NCBI GenBank assembly: GCA_903834195.1
Contig: CAILIB010000038.1
Coordinates: 1 to 37,830, forward strand
DNA length: 37,830 nucleotides
Origin: an uncultured Candidatus Berkelbacteria bacterium
GTDB taxonomy: Bacteria > Patescibacteriota > UBA1384 > CAILIB01
Direction: 5' to 3'
This document shows positions 7,813 through 23,784 of this stretch, in pieces. Under the pieces are notes generated by a model that ran no database searches, was not told the DNA's origin, and saw nothing but the letters and a program-made list of their open reading frames with translations. The position numbers were made by a program, and so were the translations under genes. Each line of letters starts with the position of its first letter. The stretch's first letter is position 1.

Positions 7813-9120
7813 TTAATCGCTGTCCAAATCATCCATGTAGACTTCCCATCCTTTCCACCCTTTAAAAACAACGATAGGAATTTCCTTGTAGGTTGTGTAG
7901 ATGAACTCTGGTGTACCCTGCACTTTATAAAAGCCAGAATCTCCAGGCACCAGCGCATCCTGCAAGACAGTTGTGAGCTGTATTTGGGTGTCTTCCAAGG
8001 TCCAGACAAGAGCATTTTCGATATCCTCCCGATTGATGTACAGGGTACTCCGCTCCAGCGGAACCTGCATTTTGCCACCCCGTGCTACGATAACGTACTC
8101 GGGGAAGGCGACGTTCGACAAATGACGCTTCAGCGCAGAAAGCAGCTTCACACCTGTATGTACGGGTGTTCGAAAGCGATCTGCCGAGATTGTCCAGGGC
8201 ATGCCATGTGTAAGATAGTATCCCTTCAGCTTGTGCTGTTCAGAAATCTCGAGAAGTTTTTTAAGTGTCTCAAGATTGTCGTTGACTCCACGCATAAGTG
8301 GAATTTGTACAAGTCTGAGCACTCCAGTTTCATCAAGTCGATGAATACTTTCGATCGCCTCTTCGGTGAACTGTCGCGGATGAACCACGTGAACGCCGAT
8401 CTCGGTGACATTGTAACGCTTAAACAGTTCTACCAAACGCGGAGTAATCCGCATCGGTGAATGCATAAAAAATGCACTGTTAAACCGTATTGTTTCGATG
8501 TGGGGTATCGATCGTACGTCGGCGAGCATTTCCTCAAGCCGATCGTCGGTTTGCATGAGCGGGTCGCCGCCACTGAACAGGAATTCCCTGATCTGTGGAT
8601 GCTCCCTAAGCCAATCCATACCAAGTTCCCAGTCGCCTTTCACAGCTGTGCGAATCGTATTCCGATCCACTGTGCGGTGTGCTTGGAAGCAATATGTGCA
8701 GATCGACATACAGCCCTTGCTGCGATAGCAGATTCGGTCAGTGTATTTCCATTGCCAGAGTTGTGACCCTGGAACGCAAATTTCCGACTCCATCTCCCAG
8801 TTGATCTTCTTGGTGGCTTCGTACACGTCTGCGCGAACGTTAAATGGTTCGAACGGTGGAAAGAAGAGATACGTGAACGGGTCATCAAGATCAATTGTTC
8901 CGTCACTGTTGACGAGAGTTTTCAGTAAGTATGGAGTAAGTGAGAATTGATATTCGTCACCATGTCTCGCAATACCTTCAGATATGTCAGGTGGTAGTTC
9001 AACATATGAACCGAGAGCTGCAAGGCTCCCTGCCCGATGTCGAATTTGCCACATTGGATCGTTCCAAGACTGGTCGTAGAAAAGCCGAATAAGTTCAGGC
9101 TTAAGATTCAGAGTTGTCAA
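7813..9120 (-). CDS. kamA: Lysine 2,3-aminomutase family radical SAM protein
   Basis: 435 residues. The radical SAM cluster motif is present as CMSICTYC (CxxxCxxC), followed by FSGGDPLM (the GGD/E SAM-binding motif) and, further on, VQIPLMRGVND, a typical KamA/EpmB strand. The YYLTHGMPWTISADRFRTPVHTG segment corresponds to the family's PLP- and substrate-binding region. Members convert L-lysine to beta-lysine with PLP and S-adenosylmethionine. It starts with TTG, supported by a strong Shine-Dalgarno (AGGAGGG) 7 nt upstream. It stands alone with its own terminator. Lysine substrate versus a protein-bound lysine, as in EpmB, cannot be told from sequence. Confidence 0.85.
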   Translation of the reverse strand: MTTLNLKPELIRLFYDQSWNDPMWQIRHRAGSLAALGSYVELPPDISEGIARHGDEYQFSLTPYLLKTLVNSDGTIDLDDPFTYLFFPPFEPFNVRADVYEATKKINWEMESEICVPGSQLWQWKYTDRICYRSKGCMSICTYCFQAHRTVDRNTIRTAVKGDWELGMDWLREHPQIREFLFSGGDPLMQTDDRLEEMLADVRSIPHIETIRFNSAFFMHSPMRITPRLVELFKRYNVTEIGVHVVHPRQFTEEAIESIHRLDETGVLRLVQIPLMRGVNDNLETLKKLLEISEQHKLKGYYLTHGMPWTISADRFRTPVHTGVKLLSALKRHLSNVAFPEYVIVARGGKMQVPLERSTLYINREDIENALVWTLEDTQIQLTTVLQDALVPGDSGFYKVQGTPEFIYTTYKEIPIVVFKGWKGWEVYMDDLDSD

Positions 9121-12721: not shown

Positions 12722-14206
12722 CTACTTATCTAACTGGTCTAATTCAGAAGTGTGCACATGAGCTGGTGTAGGTAGATGAATTTTTCCGTTAGCCTCATTC
12801 CGGTCATAGGTAGCCTTCAATTCTATTCCGCTGGGAGTTACGTTGTTTATTAGGATCGAAGATGTTGTAAAAGATATTACCGCTCCTGAGCTTGGTCGAC
12901 TAAGGGTGGTACGTGCCGCATCGGCAATGCCACCTATCCCACCTGCATCACATGAATCAAATACCACACTGGCGTTAGGGGCGAGCAGTCCCTCGAGGCG
13001 GCTGCTGCCGGGACGGTCAAAGTCTTCTATCGTAACACGTCCGTGTACTTCTTTAGAGAGAGTGAATCCATTGTTACTACCGTGCGCTGCTACAATCAGG
13101 AATTGGAGCGGCTGCTGGGTAGATCCTGGATCTGGAGTTGAATCCAGTAGGCGTGAAACGAGCTCGCGCAAGGAAGTGCATTCAGCAATGAATAGTTTGA
13201 CTCCTGGCGCCTGTGATTGTAGTTGTAGTGGTAGAGTGTAAAGATACTGACGAGCCTCCTTGAGTGCGCCATTCCAGTCATCTTGGCAGTACACGGCAAG
13301 TCCGTAGCGATCCGGGCGTTCAATTCCTATTGCCTGCCCCAGAAGGAGTTGTTGTGGATAGCGGGCGAATTGATTAATGCCGAACTTTTTCTGGAGGTAT
13401 GCACTGCTACCTTCCTTGGAGAATTCCAGAAATCTGATAGCTTCAAGGTTATTTGCTAAATAATGGTTGTCGTACTCCCAGTCCTTTTCTCCTGTTTCTG
13501 ATTCGAAGAATTGACCGGAGCCGGCGTAGATGGATTTCCCAAGTTGCTCAGCATTAATCTTCCAGCCAGTTTTATCGCAAGTAGCTTGCAGATATTCAAT
13601 GAGATATTTTGGAGTACTAGTAAATGTGATCAGCATTTTGTCAAGAAAATCTGCATCATGTCCCCATCCATCTACTCGCGCCAACTCCTGCCAGAGAAGA
13701 ATTCTTTTTTCTGAGTTAAGGAACCTAATATAGTGACAGTCTCCCGCGTGTCCTCCGCGGGTAAGCTTTACTAACTTTTCGAGTGGAATTTTAGAGAGTG
13801 CGTACTCTGTGAGGTCCCATACTGTCTCGTCTGCCTCAAATGCAGGGGTAATGCCCTGTAAGAAATTTGGCTCAAAGAAGGAGTCTCCTGTTTCAAAGGC
13901 TTTTCCCAGAACAGCACCTATTCGAGTTAACTCGTCTCCTTGGAGATTGTTAGGTGATTTTAGCATCTTTGCTACCCACATTTGGCAGGTCTGTGTCTGC
14001 TTAAACGCCGTTAGGAAAAGAGATAGATCCTCAGTGAGTAACATTAGGAAATCGTCAGAAGACCAAGATTCATCAATGATAATCTTCCCGTCTTTGTTGC
14101 GATGAAGATCAAGAAGGGCTTGCAGATCACTTTTTTGTTTTTGAGTTTCTGTCTCCACTTCCATGGAGGGTAGTTCTGGACCGAGATGAGGCAATTCGTG
14201 AGACAT
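12722..14206 (-). CDS. Caspase-fold (CHAT/C14-like) peptidase with helical N-terminal region
   Basis: 494 residues. The C-terminal third has the caspase-fold dyad: QFLIVAAHGSNNGF supplies His375 and SVVFDSCDAGG supplies Cys419, 44 residues apart as is usual for clan CD. A preceding strand/helix unit (YGLAVYCQDDWNGALKEA; KLFIAECTSLRELVSRLL) fits the start of a CHAT-type domain. The N-terminal 290 residues are helical, without recognised repeats, and could act as sensor or inhibitor. On the minus strand TACACT lies 6 nt upstream of the ATG, so the mRNA may be leaderless. In bacteria such peptidases often act in immunity or programmed death by cleaving partner proteins; that role is inference here. 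Confidence 0.75.
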   Translation of the reverse strand: MSHELPHLGPELPSMEVETETQKQKSDLQALLDLHRNKDGKIIIDESWSSDDFLMLLTEDLSLFLTAFKQTQTCQMWVAKMLKSPNNLQGDELTRIGAVLGKAFETGDSFFEPNFLQGITPAFEADETVWDLTEYALSKIPLEKLVKLTRGGHAGDCHYIRFLNSEKRILLWQELARVDGWGHDADFLDKMLITFTSTPKYLIEYLQATCDKTGWKINAEQLGKSIYAGSGQFFESETGEKDWEYDNHYLANNLEAIRFLEFSKEGSSAYLQKKFGINQFARYPQQLLLGQAIGIERPDRYGLAVYCQDDWNGALKEARQYLYTLPLQLQSQAPGVKLFIAECTSLRELVSRLLDSTPDPGSTQQPLQFLIVAAHGSNNGFTLSKEVHGRVTIEDFDRPGSSRLEGLLAPNASVVFDSCDAGGIGGIADAARTTLSRPSSGAVISFTTSSILINNVTPSGIELKATYDRNEANGKIHLPTPAHVHTSELDQLDK

Positions 14207-19935: not shown

Positions 19936-20352
19936 ATGCTAAATACTAAGCTCACTCAGAAGCAGCTCTCTTTTGTGGAGAACTATCTGTTAAATGGTGG
20001 AAATGGTACACAAGCTGTTTTAGGGTCATATAAGACCAGAAATCGTAAATCAGCCAGTGTCATTGCTTCTCGTAACCTTCAGAATCCTCGAATAGCCCAA
20101 GCCCTGAGAGGTTCGCCGGAAACAGAGAGAGTTATCCTGGATTCTATTGCAAGAACTATCAAGGAAGGATTAGAGGCAACAATAGACGGAAAGGTGCCCG
20201 ACTATGTAATTAGACATATGTTTGTGACTACTTGTATAGAGTTAATGAACCTCAATCCAAGGCCAGAAAAACAAGTTACAAAATCAGGAGTTTTAACACA
20301 AGAAGCGATAGATCGTATACGAACACGAGACGCAATCAGAAAGCGCAGTTAG
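19936..20352 (+). CDS. Terminase small-subunit-like DNA-binding protein
   Basis: 138 residues. The N-terminal 60 follow the terminase small-subunit (Terminase_2) pattern: LTQKQLSFVENYLLNGGNGT, then 'QAVLGSYKTRNRKSASVIASR' and NLQNPRIAQAL, i.e. the HTH that normally binds phage packaging sites. The remaining part is helical and basic. No large terminase, portal or capsid gene is nearby, so it is not evidence of a prophage; in CPR-type genomes such domains occur alone beside recombinases and may act as DNA-binding regulators. It has no Shine-Dalgarno. A gene-free stretch of about 316 bp follows (20353-20668), holding only a weak hairpin near 20612 followed by a T-tract. Confidence 0.7.
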   Translation: MLNTKLTQKQLSFVENYLLNGGNGTQAVLGSYKTRNRKSASVIASRNLQNPRIAQALRGSPETERVILDSIARTIKEGLEATIDGKVPDYVIRHMFVTTCIELMNLNPRPEKQVTKSGVLTQEAIDRIRTRDAIRKRS

Positions 20353-20840: not shown

Positions 20841-22445
20841 ATGACCAAGACCATCAGATCAATCGCATTGTGTCGTGTTTCTACCCCAGAGCAAGCACTT
20901 ACTGGGCATAGTTTGGAACGCCAAAATGAAAATGTGTACAGAGGAGCAGATGAGTTAGGGGCACCAATAAAAGAAAGGTGGTCACTAGATCAATCTAGTC
21001 GTGCTGGTAAGAATTTCAAGAGAAAGGATCTCAATGAGATGATTGCCTACTGTAAGGCAAATCCAGATGTGAAATATCTCATTGTTGATGAAGTGGATCG
21101 CTTCATGCGGGATATTAAATACTTTTACTATTTTGAGGCTGTATTCGAGCAGTTGGGAGTTAAAGTCTGGTACGCATCTCAACCTGAATTGAACGGTGAC
21201 AACATGATGGCAAAGCTGAATAAGCTATTCCTAATCTTCAGGGCAGAGGCAAGTAATGATGAGAGGATAGGTAAGACTACAAATGGTTTAAGAGAACGAG
21301 TAAGGCTTGGCTATTATCCTTTTCCAACTCCACAGGGATATAAACGGACTATAACGCCCGGTTTATTTGAGCCTGATGATGTTCGGTTCAACCTTCTCCA
21401 GAAAGCATTTCGTAAAGTTCTCCTTGGCAGTAATTACAAGGAAACGACTGCTTGGTTAACTCAGCAGGGGTATTTAACTCCACAGGGCAAGTTATTAAGT
21501 CCAAATCGCTTTCGTGAGATGTTGAAGTGTCCATATTATGCGGGAGTTATTCGTATTACCGGTTGGGATTTTACCAATGAACATCCTTTGCATAAAAAGA
21601 TGGTTACTCTAGAGGAGTTTGATCTTATACAGGAAAGAATTGATAAGAAAAAATATAAAATTCCTCATAGAAATCATAATCCTGAGTATAAGCTCTCAAA
21701 CCTTATGGAGTGCGCTGAATGTGGTGGAAGACTGGTAGGGTTTCCTCATAGGAACGGTAAGGGTTGGGTAGGGCACAAGTACAGATGTCGTGGTTGTAAA
21801 AAGAAAATGTATCAGCGTGTAGATGTACATGGGGCATTAGATGATCTATTGGTTCATGCCCATTTAGTTAATGAGAATAAGGGTCAATTCATTGCTGATC
21901 TCAAAGAAACCTGGAAAGAAGGTCGATCTGAGGCCTTTGGTCACATCCAGATTCTTGAGGCAAGGAGAGCTACTCTAGATGAGGAAAAGAAAAAATACCT
22001 TACGGCCTTAGCAATGTATCCAGCGTTAAAGGATGACTACTTACAGCAGATAAGCGATGTTGTAGAGAAGATAAAAGCAGTGGATGAGGAGATGGTAACT
22101 GCTAAAAAGGTGGATGATGATCTCATAGAATTTACCAAGTTTGCATTGGATTATGTGGATGGCCTTAAGGACAATTGGTGGGACTTGAGTTTTGCTGACA
22201 TGAAAAAGTGTAAACAACTTCTATTTCCAAGCGGTTTTTCAATAAATTATTTAGGAAAAGTTTACACCCCTGAAATTAGCCCACTTTTCAGGTTGGAAGG
22301 GTACGAAAAAGAGCCCTTTAGGGGCTCAAATCTCGGTATGGTGGAGGTGGCGGGGGTTGAACCCGCGTCCATCATGGGTATTTCTGGGATTCTCCATGCT
22401 CAGTCTGTCCATATACGTACGCACACGGGACAGACAAGTGCGTGA
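20841..22445 (+). CDS. Large serine recombinase whose 3' end overlaps ssrA antisense
   Basis: 534 residues. The resolvase catalytic domain (1-150) has Ser14 in LCRVSTPEQ and the typical ERQ...Y helix. The recombinase domain (about 165-260) and a zinc ribbon with CAEC...CRGC near residues 294-320 follow, then a coiled coil, the layout of large serine integrases. The expected family-like ending is YTPEISPLFRL at about residue 480. After it the frame runs on through the ssrA terminator (KEPFRGSNLG) and antisense through the tmRNA 3' domain (VEVAGVEPAS), stopping at 22445. The last 50 or so residues therefore come from host DNA and show that the element abuts ssrA. It probably integrates or excises the neighbouring module at this site. 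Confidence 0.88.
   Translation: MTKTIRSIALCRVSTPEQALTGHSLERQNENVYRGADELGAPIKERWSLDQSSRAGKNFKRKDLNEMIAYCKANPDVKYLIVDEVDRFMRDIKYFYYFEAVFEQLGVKVWYASQPELNGDNMMAKLNKLFLIFRAEASNDERIGKTTNGLRERVRLGYYPFPTPQGYKRTITPGLFEPDDVRFNLLQKAFRKVLLGSNYKETTAWLTQQGYLTPQGKLLSPNRFREMLKCPYYAGVIRITGWDFTNEHPLHKKMVTLEEFDLIQERIDKKKYKIPHRNHNPEYKLSNLMECAECGGRLVGFPHRNGKGWVGHKYRCRGCKKKMYQRVDVHGALDDLLVHAHLVNENKGQFIADLKETWKEGRSEAFGHIQILEARRATLDEEKKKYLTALAMYPALKDDYLQQISDVVEKIKAVDEEMVTAKKVDDDLIEFTKFALDYVDGLKDNWWDLSFADMKKCKQLLFPSGFSINYLGKVYTPEISPLFRLEGYEKEPFRGSNLGMVEVAGVEPASIMGISGILHAQSVHIRTHTGQTSA
22304..22330 (-). terminator. Intrinsic terminator of ssrA, inside the recombinase gene
   Basis: On the minus strand GAGCCC-CTAAA-GGGCTC is followed by TTTTTCG. 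It begins 9 bp past the tmRNA 3' CCA and codes for part of the recombinase C-terminus on the other strand. Confidence 0.88.
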
Positions 22446-22725
22446 GTACGTCGTTCCGTAATCTTAGCTGTGGGTACGGTACCTATCCACAGAGCGACCA
22501 ATCTATATTATGCCGCTCTCCCGCCAGTTGGCGAAACGGGTGCGACAGCCTAATTAGATTAGGCGAATGCAGGTACAGCAACAGGAGCGAAAACGCTCTT
22601 GAAGGCAGTAGCTACACGTGCAAAGGTGTTTGCACTTGGGTTTTGTGTACGGATTTACGAGGAAGCACACAACCTCGGCATGCTGGTCCAGAAGGGACCA
22701 CACGGTGTCGAATTAATACACCCCC
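22339..22725 (-). ncRNA. ssrA: Transfer-messenger RNA (tmRNA)
   Basis: 387 nt on the minus strand. The 5' end GGGGGTG pairs with CACCTCC before an encoded ACCA, and the T-arm (GCGGG-TTCAACC-CCCGC) is canonical. The 5' end continues with the conserved TTCGAC. The resume codon GCA (22633-22631) opens a 24-codon tag that begins ANTF, ends PAFA and stops at TAA (22561-22559). tmRNA, with SmpB, rescues stalled ribosomes and marks the products for degradation. The tag is hydrophobic with Arg and Lys inside and ends in AFA rather than the common LAA. The 3' third is overlapped antisense by the serine recombinase frame. Confidence 0.95.
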
Positions 22726-23019: not shown

Positions 23020-23049
23020 TTGACAGCAGAACAAAATGTAAAGTATACT
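23020..23049 (+). promoter_or_regulatory. Strong sigma-70-type promoter of the XRE-Hsp20 gene
   Basis: TTGACA (23020-23025) and TATACT (23044-23049) are separated by 18 bp, the best consensus promoter in the window. The leader is only about 18 nt and contains the Shine-Dalgarno AAGGGG (23059-23064). No obvious operator palindrome for the encoded HTH was seen. Confidence 0.85.
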
Positions 23050-23073
23050 TTCCATCAGAAGGGGATTGTTCAT

Positions 23074-23784
23074 ATGAACGACAACAAGAACGTTATCCAC
23101 ATTCGAATCCGAGACTTGCGACGTGAGAAATCACTCACGCAAGAAGAGCTTGCAGAAGCTCTTGGAGTATCGCGACAGTCGATCAACGCCATGGAAGCGG
23201 GTCGCTGTTTACCGAGTTTACCGGTGGCACTTCAAATTGCCTCGTTTTTTTCGGTGCCAATTACACTCTTGTTCGGCCTCGAAGAAGAAATGCAACAAGC
23301 TGTACAACAAATTCAACAGATTCAACCAGTTGGAAATCAACGGAAGGAGAATATGTCTCAATTAGTACCATGGTCACCACTTCGCGAAATGCGCGAAATG
23401 CTTGACGAAATGATGGATGAAACAATGAACTATGCACCAGCTACTGGTGTTACGGTTCCTGCAGTCAATATTTCACAAACTGAGCAAGAAGTTCACATCG
23501 ATCTTCGTTTGCCTGGGTTTAAGAAAGAAGATCTCACTATCGAAGTTGGTGAGGACTTTCTCGCTGTTTCAGGTGAAGCTAAGCATGATCATGCAGAAGG
23601 AAATAAGCAATACTTCCGCCGAGAATTCGTTTCACAGAACTTCTCACGAACAGTTTCACTTCCAGCAATTGTGCAAACTACAGGTGCTGAAGCCGAAATG
23701 AAGCATGGAGTGCTCAATATTCGACTCAAGAAAGCGGTTGAGGAAAAGCCAAAAACCAATCGGATCGAAATTAAAGCTGACTAA
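23074..23784 (+). CDS. XRE-family HTH regulator fused in frame to an Hsp20 small heat-shock chaperone
   Basis: 236 residues from the ATG at 23074 (AAGGGG 9 nt upstream; the frame is open further up but that part overlaps the promoter). Residues 8-62 are an XRE/Cro helix-turn-helix (IRDLRREKSLTQEELAEALG, then VSRQSINAMEAGRCLPS). A Gln/Ile linker follows (QQAVQQIQQIQPVG). From about residue 94, MSQLVPWSPLREM is the usual N-terminus of a bacterial Hsp20, then an alpha-crystallin domain (VNISQTEQEVHIDLRLPGFK ... FLAVSGEAK ... FSRTVSLPA ... GVLNIRLKK). An internal AAGGAG plus ATG at 23353 could also give a free 143-aa Hsp20. A chaperone-sensing repressor is a natural idea, but it is inference. Confidence 0.88.
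   Translation: MNDNKNVIHIRIRDLRREKSLTQEELAEALGVSRQSINAMEAGRCLPSLPVALQIASFFSVPITLLFGLEEEMQQAVQQIQQIQPVGNQRKENMSQLVPWSPLREMREMLDEMMDETMNYAPATGVTVPAVNISQTEQEVHIDLRLPGFKKEDLTIEVGEDFLAVSGEAKHDHAEGNKQYFRREFVSQNFSRTVSLPAIVQTTGAEAEMKHGVLNIRLKKAVEEKPKTNRIEIKAD
23344..23355 (+). promoter_or_regulatory. Internal ribosome binding site and ATG for a free Hsp20
   Basis: AAGGAG at 23344-23349 lies 3 nt before an in-frame ATG at 23353 that starts MSQLVPWSPLREM, a normal Hsp20 N-terminus. Spacing is short but workable. Confidence 0.5.

Follow-up and report, generated by a model that had tools for sequence, protein, structure and literature searches.

The HrcA/CIRCE system combines one repressor, an inverted-repeat operator at the groESL and dnaK promoters and feedback from the GroE chaperone; HspR represses chaperone genes with DnaK as its co-repressor; and in Streptomyces albus hsp18 is repressed by the thermosensor RheA, with RheA, CtsR and some HrcA proteins described as direct thermosensors (all PMC8533110). 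The joining of a regulatory or signaling domain to a chaperone is reported for the PilZ-DnaK chaperones of Myxococcus xanthus (PMC10313047). Full-text searches of the open-access literature on the fusion examined here, on HrcA or heat shock in Patescibacteria, on CIRCE in CPR bacteria and on heat shock in Berkelbacteria turned up no prior account of such a system among the papers listed, judged by title and start of abstract. To our knowledge, no heat-shock regulon is known for Berkelbacteria.

The window analyzed here is an entire contig of 37,830 nucleotides (CAILIB010000038.1, our C38) from an uncultured Candidatus Berkelbacteria bacterium, whose genome (G000; 1.13 Mb in 46 contigs) is an estimated 76% complete. 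On the forward strand, positions 23074–23784 hold a stop-free open reading frame of 236 amino acids in which an XRE helix-turn-helix and an Hsp20 chaperone share one uninterrupted frame, as an earlier note on this DNA had proposed, with both Pfam domains above their cut-offs. HTH_3 spans residues 12–66 (23107–23271, recognition helix SRQSINAME; E 3.6e-14, 53 bits against a cut-off of 23), and the alpha-crystallin domain with its IEI tail spans residues 133–234 (23470–23775; HSP20, E 4e-18, 65.8 bits against a cut-off of 20.8); the alignment of relatives and an AlphaFold2 model support both. HrcA (PF01628), CtsR (PF05848) and MerR models are all absent from the Pfam matches of the protein. The Gln/Ile-rich linker that the same note described is indeed there (residues 83–93, 23320–23352). 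The AlphaFold2 model, built on 21 sequences, has a helical DNA-binding head, a disordered linker (pLDDT <50 at residues 84–97), a helix at residues 102–117 that forms the N-terminal arm of the Hsp20 portion (23377–23424; modest confidence, with mean pLDDT of 68 and 58 per ten-residue block) and a beta-sandwich at residues 131–220, for which the best Foldseek matches among solved structures are small heat-shock proteins (1gme, 3w1z). Mean pLDDT is 78 and pTM is 0.42, so the model does not fix where the two domains lie relative to each other. The gene is followed by an inverted repeat that is probably its terminator (23795–23880, forward strand; arms 23795–23821 and 23854–23880, 26 of 27 positions paired as read by eye).

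The gene adjoins a segment (20841–22725) with the appearance of an element inserted into ssrA: the tmRNA gene (22339–22725, reverse strand) shares 107 bases with the gene of a large serine recombinase (20841–22445, forward strand), and a Terminase_2-like gene (19936–20352) lies upstream of the recombinase gene. Elsewhere in the window, 7813–9120 encodes a divergent radical SAM protein similar to KamA/lysine 2,3-aminomutase that falls under all NCBIfam cut-offs shown, and 12722–14206 encodes a 494-aa protein with no Pfam or NCBIfam match, whose AAHGSNNG and FDSCDAGG stretches we take to be reminiscent of caspase-like His/Cys motifs.

The earlier note suggested seeking the same domain pair in other CPR genomes, and 40 of the 55 Berkelbacteria-class genomes have it in a single frame; many of the 55 are drafts less than 95% complete, so that absence here means "not found." No two-gene homologues with a separate XRE protein and Hsp20 were seen in the class, where the pair is one fused gene, and the frame between the domains is open in the window and in its full-length relatives. 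The 40 extracted genes, all of which were aligned, encode 189–261 aa from first starts picked by script (the one picked for G054 lies ahead of the operator and has surely been set too far upstream), and all 40 proteins retain the alpha-crystallin motif (A..G.L) together with a loose I-x-I-like tail, scored as I/V/L-x-I/V/L in the last 28 residues with its chance frequency uncontrolled. Among the matches listed, the closest full-length relative is 63% identical to the window protein and most fused relatives are 31–43% identical. A search of 146 related genomes listed no full-length relatives outside the class; likewise, a profile search of 379 genomes of the phylum listed full-length matches solely in the class, the matches listed elsewhere being to the Hsp20 part. 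A scan of named genomes with one HTH peptide pattern, which fusions with other HTH sequences would escape, recovered 21 records with the fusion or a shortened form, labeled Berkelbacteria (14), "Patescibacteria group" (4), candidate division WS2 (1) or "bacterium" (2) and including the complete genome GW2011_GWE1_39_12; the remaining 17 loci, from other phyla, match in the HTH alone, and viral contigs yielded one HTH-only relative. Full-length relatives in many other genomes rule out chance or an assembly artifact as the source of the fusion. Two genomes carry fusions with a shortened alpha-crystallin domain (G009, 151 aa, L149 2292–2747; G025, 142 aa, L151 3250–3678), possibly repressors that have lost chaperone function, and in G023 a contig end falls inside the HTH of the fusion gene.

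A strong promoter precedes the fusion gene in the window, with a −35 box TTGACA (23020–23025) and, after an 18-bp spacer, a −10 box TATACT (23044–23049), both on the forward strand. Comparison with the promoters of relatives places the −10 box within a predicted autoregulatory operator, TGTAAAGTATACTTTCCA (23037–23054, forward strand), which differs by one mismatch from the palindrome TGTAAAG-N4-CTTTACA. Of the 40 fused-gene promoters, 39 carry this palindrome, 32 of them exactly and 7 with a single mismatch, the exception being G002, in whose own promoter no site was found at up to three mismatches within 160 nt. In the shared layout, TTGACA, approximately 17 bp and TACAWT, the palindrome fills the spacer between −35 and −10 and overlaps the −10; 31 of the 39 operator-bearing relatives have TTGACA (at most one mismatch) 16–18 bp before a TACANN −10, and the window copy stands outside those 31, its −35 and −10 being placed differently relative to the operator. 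A palindrome conserved in this way is a candidate operator of the HTH_3 head. The chosen ATG lies 1–10 nt after the predicted −10 in 17 of 39 genes, with five further starts inside or before the −10, which is only suggestive of a leaderless first start.

Across the 55 class genomes, we identified 180 operator sites with at most one mismatch, in 49 of the genomes, as against 9 sites for a reversed control pattern. In a sample of the phylum, 6 of 9 class members have the exact operator versus 2 of 136 others, with one site each, which is near background, and two strict patterns found none in approximately 400 nt upstream of the 17 HTH-only loci of other phyla. The sites of the window's genome illustrate the predicted regulon: seven in number, they precede clpP, an ABC-2 transporter gene, groES-groEL, the gene of a ClpB-type Clp ATPase, ftsH, grpE-dnaK and the fusion gene itself. 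Setting the 39 own-promoter sites aside, 141 sites were judged, some at contig ends without a readable gene and two of them probable own promoters of the variants G009 (labeled XRE-Hsp20) and G023 (counted as without a target). Targets were identified by BLAST matches, from −70 to +500 nt of each site, to reference proteins taken from G000, G005, G007 and G017, and ten of the reference proteins were checked with Pfam. By this measure, 105 of the 141 sites lie at most 500 nt upstream of dnaK (36), groES (27), clpP (13), dnaJ (12), clpC/B (7), ftsH (5) or grpE (5), the rest being assigned to an ABC-2 ATPase (5), another Hsp20 or XRE-Hsp20 (2) or no reference gene (29); among exact sites, the corresponding figure is 78 of 93. 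At 70 of the 110 chaperone, protease and transporter sites, TTGACA stands 16–18 bp before TACANN in the direction of the target, against 2 sites where it does so facing the other way, which indicates that the operator sits where a repressor site would. This placement makes unlikely a further candidate, a nucleoid-targeted chaperone with no regulatory role.

The set of operator-bearing heat-shock targets, as read from predicted sites, is variable between genomes, and in G008 no operator site is listed besides that of its own promoter. Several additional genes recur behind operators. In G025, G038, G033 and G012 (L153, L178, L231, L234; three of the sites with one mismatch), it is a gene that we take to be nusA-like and that may be a regulon member; in G000, G030, G049, G036 and G051 (L084, L106, L212, L216, L219), an ABC-2 transporter ATPase gene; and in G041 (two copies), G047 and G051 (L119, L121, L217), presumably a metallophosphoesterase-like gene.

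Every one of the 43 genomes that hold the fusion, counting the variant or cut cases G009, G025 and G023, has operators, versus 6 of the 12 without, for which Fisher's test gives 3e-5, a value that is too strong because the genomes share ancestry. None of the 55 class genomes yielded the usual repressor HrcA (PF01628), which turned up in 122 of 136 other genomes of the phylum sample; CIRCE, searched at up to two mismatches, was seen in none of the 55 and in at least 68 of 90 other genomes of the phylum; and CtsR (PF05848) was likewise found in 0 of 55. The fusion seems to take the place of HrcA in the class. Neither fusion nor operator was detected in G006, G010, G011, G024, G028 and G032, where HrcA, CIRCE and CtsR were likewise not found. 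Operators without a detected fusion are present in G019, G022, G031, G046, G052 and G053, four of which are 71–86% complete, with G019 at 95% and G022 at 92%. G019, a single contig, has operators at clpP and clpC alone (L165, L210) and may be a lineage losing the system, and G022 has six operator-like sites (L159–L163, L226), none at a reference gene and three identical, possibly belonging to a repeat element.

The earlier note also pointed to an internal AAGGAG and ATG that would start a normal-length Hsp20. Both are present in the window, on the forward strand: the Shine-Dalgarno motif at 23344–23349 is followed, after a spacing of merely 3 nt, by the in-frame ATG at 23353 (Met94), from which a free Hsp20 of 143 aa (23353–23784) is predicted. 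An ATG aligns with Met94, within four columns, in 32 of 40 fused genes, a count that includes G020 and leaves out the unaligned internal Met of G013, which follows GGGAGGTG. A match to at least five bases of AAGGAGGTG, 3–12 nt before the ATG, is found at 28 of these 32 aligned ATGs (at least four bases, 31 of 32), compared with only 8 of the 173 remaining ATGs inside these genes (p 4e-23, too strong as the genomes are related). By the same five-base measure, the genes of DnaK, GroEL, GroES and ClpC carry the motif at 58 of their 80 true starts but at only 52 of the 799 ATGs in their interior, and the fused genes carry it at 3 of 40 of their chosen first starts. In 16 genes the GGAG starts on the third base of a codon (Lys-Glu, AAG GAG, the window type) and in 12 on the first (Lys-Gly-Gly, AAA GGA GGT); since the signal occurs in two codon frames, it is the DNA motif that is conserved, which rules out peptide conservation as the origin of the internal AAGGAGG. 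Many of the Hsp20 matches listed from the rest of the phylum begin near the internal Met. The spacing in the window, below that of most relatives, suggests that initiation there may be weaker. Eight of the 40 genes have no aligned internal Met. The signal is missing from the short forms (G002, G004, G005, G016, G020, G041 and G051), which lack most of the N-terminal arm (G020 has an aligned Met but no Shine-Dalgarno motif), and from G003, a long form and near relative of the window, the Met and signal are missing as well. The internal start probably also yields the chaperone on its own.

The genome of the window encodes a second, separate Hsp20 (on C29), and the 21 separate Hsp20s of the class group apart from the 40 fused alpha-crystallin domains with support of 100/99. 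None of the 21 genes checked has an operator (at most one mismatch) within 150 nt, so that in most genomes the operator-controlled Hsp20 would be the one encoded within the repressor gene itself. G001 departs from this in having, unlike those 21, a further separate Hsp20 with an operator in front (C50, L090), and the internal product is therefore not everywhere the sole Hsp20 under the operator. In other classes, among the matches listed, 8 of 19 Hsp20s whose match begins at query residue 100 or earlier lie within 3 kb of hrcA, as do 0 of 35 of the remaining Hsp20s (four rows of this comparison had no HrcA). This suggests that the fusion arose at a former hrcA-hsp20 neighborhood, an XRE protein replacing HrcA, although the history itself is inference.

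Because the predicted operator is found at core heat-shock genes and the 55 class genomes yielded no HrcA, CtsR or CIRCE, we consider the XRE-Hsp20 fusion to be very probably the main heat-shock repressor of the class. We hypothesize that its XRE head binds TGTAAAG-N4-CTTTACA between and over the −35 and −10 and, when bound, would block the promoter of its own gene as well as the promoters of groESL, grpE/dnaK/dnaJ, clpP, clpC/B and ftsH. The attached small heat-shock domain would be the likely sensor, binding accumulated unfolded proteins or altering its assembly, upon which the head would quit the operators and the regulon would be derepressed. Translation of the same mRNA from the conserved internal Shine-Dalgarno motif and ATG would yield a free, heat-inducible Hsp20 that soaks up clients, and repression would return. 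Genome comparison shows the fused architecture, the operator and its place in the fusion's own promoter, the set of genes behind it, the internal start signal and a class in which HrcA and CIRCE were not detected; operator binding by the fusion protein, repression, Hsp20 sensing and feedback are the steps that we infer, and we hold this account as a whole to be likely. The one-protein heat-shock switch imagined in the earlier note fits the data insofar as core heat-shock genes carry the predicted operator in their promoters; the part in which the chaperone domain senses unfolded protein is plausible, and the Hsp20 domain is a candidate for that role.

The main rival for the sensing step is that the repressor senses heat directly, the Hsp20 part being a temperature-labile assembly module that dissociates without binding unfolded protein. 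Small heat-shock proteins change assembly with temperature, and the shortened Hsp20 domains of G009 and G025, where dnaK retains its operator, indicate that the chaperone domain need not be intact in every case; RheA, CtsR and some HrcA proteins also provide precedents for direct thermosensing (PMC8533110). However, the alpha-crystallin motif and loose I-x-I-like tail kept in 40 of 40 proteins go beyond what a mere assembly tag might need, and we regard direct sensing as possible, though the less probable course. We are equally doubtful that the free Hsp20 is a partner of the regulator, co-assembling with the full-length protein to tune its DNA binding in the manner of an in-frame antagonist: the two products would share a domain and an mRNA, and the internal signal is conserved in most long forms, but the seven short forms that lack it keep the operator in their own promoters, G002 excepted. 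That the internal ATG and Shine-Dalgarno motif are unused relics of an ancestral separate hsp20 gene would agree with the similarity of the Hsp20 part to Hsp20s from other classes, in alignments that, among the matches listed, start close to this Met; it is nonetheless improbable, the motif having been retained in different reading frames among proteins that are mostly 31–43% identical to that of the window. Least probable of all, and in our judgment very improbable, is that the palindrome is bound by a different XRE protein, for which the fusion gene would be no more than one target among others. Small XRE proteins do exist in these genomes (for example, on C15 of G000), but it is the fusion that tracks the operator (43 of 43 versus 6 of 12 genomes), and none of the seven G000 sites is on the contig of the small XRE gene.

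HrcA and HspR each need a separate chaperone, GroE and DnaK, respectively, to report damage, whereas here the reporter and the repressor appear to be one molecule. We lean, by a narrow margin, toward regarding the fusion as a new family of master regulators in which sensor chaperone and repressor form one polypeptide, an internal start adds a free chaperone that resets the system, and HrcA/CIRCE has been replaced in most of the class. If true, the sensing of unfolded protein could be tested with one protein and one 18-bp DNA, the heat-shock regulon of Berkelbacteria would be defined, and the class would show how a bacterial lineage of this rank may have swapped its heat-shock regulator; it would also provide a conserved bacterial gene with two in-frame starts that yields both regulator and effector.

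Each of the known systems resembles the fusion in part. The fusion protein shares the alpha-crystallin fold, the A..G.L motif and the I-x-I-like tail with ordinary Hsp20 proteins, but has an XRE head in front, and the start codon of the Hsp20 survives inside its gene. The PilZ-DnaK chaperones differ in the domains on both sides and have no XRE head, and we know of no operator regulon for them. CtsR is a bacterial heat-shock repressor controlling clp genes, and no CtsR domain was found in 55 of 55 class genomes. RheA is likewise a repressor linked to a small heat-shock protein; however, it is a separate protein controlling hsp18, whereas the fusion carries both in one chain and has a wide predicted regulon. 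As proposed for the fusion, HspR represses chaperone genes and relies on a chaperone for sensing, but it is MerR-type, while the fusion is XRE-type and its chaperone is a fused small heat-shock protein. In HrcA/CIRCE, a single repressor similarly serves an inverted-repeat operator at groESL and dnaK; the fusion has no HrcA domain, has a different operator and contains the chaperone within the repressor chain. In our account, the fusion thus works like HrcA or HspR and is a member of neither family.
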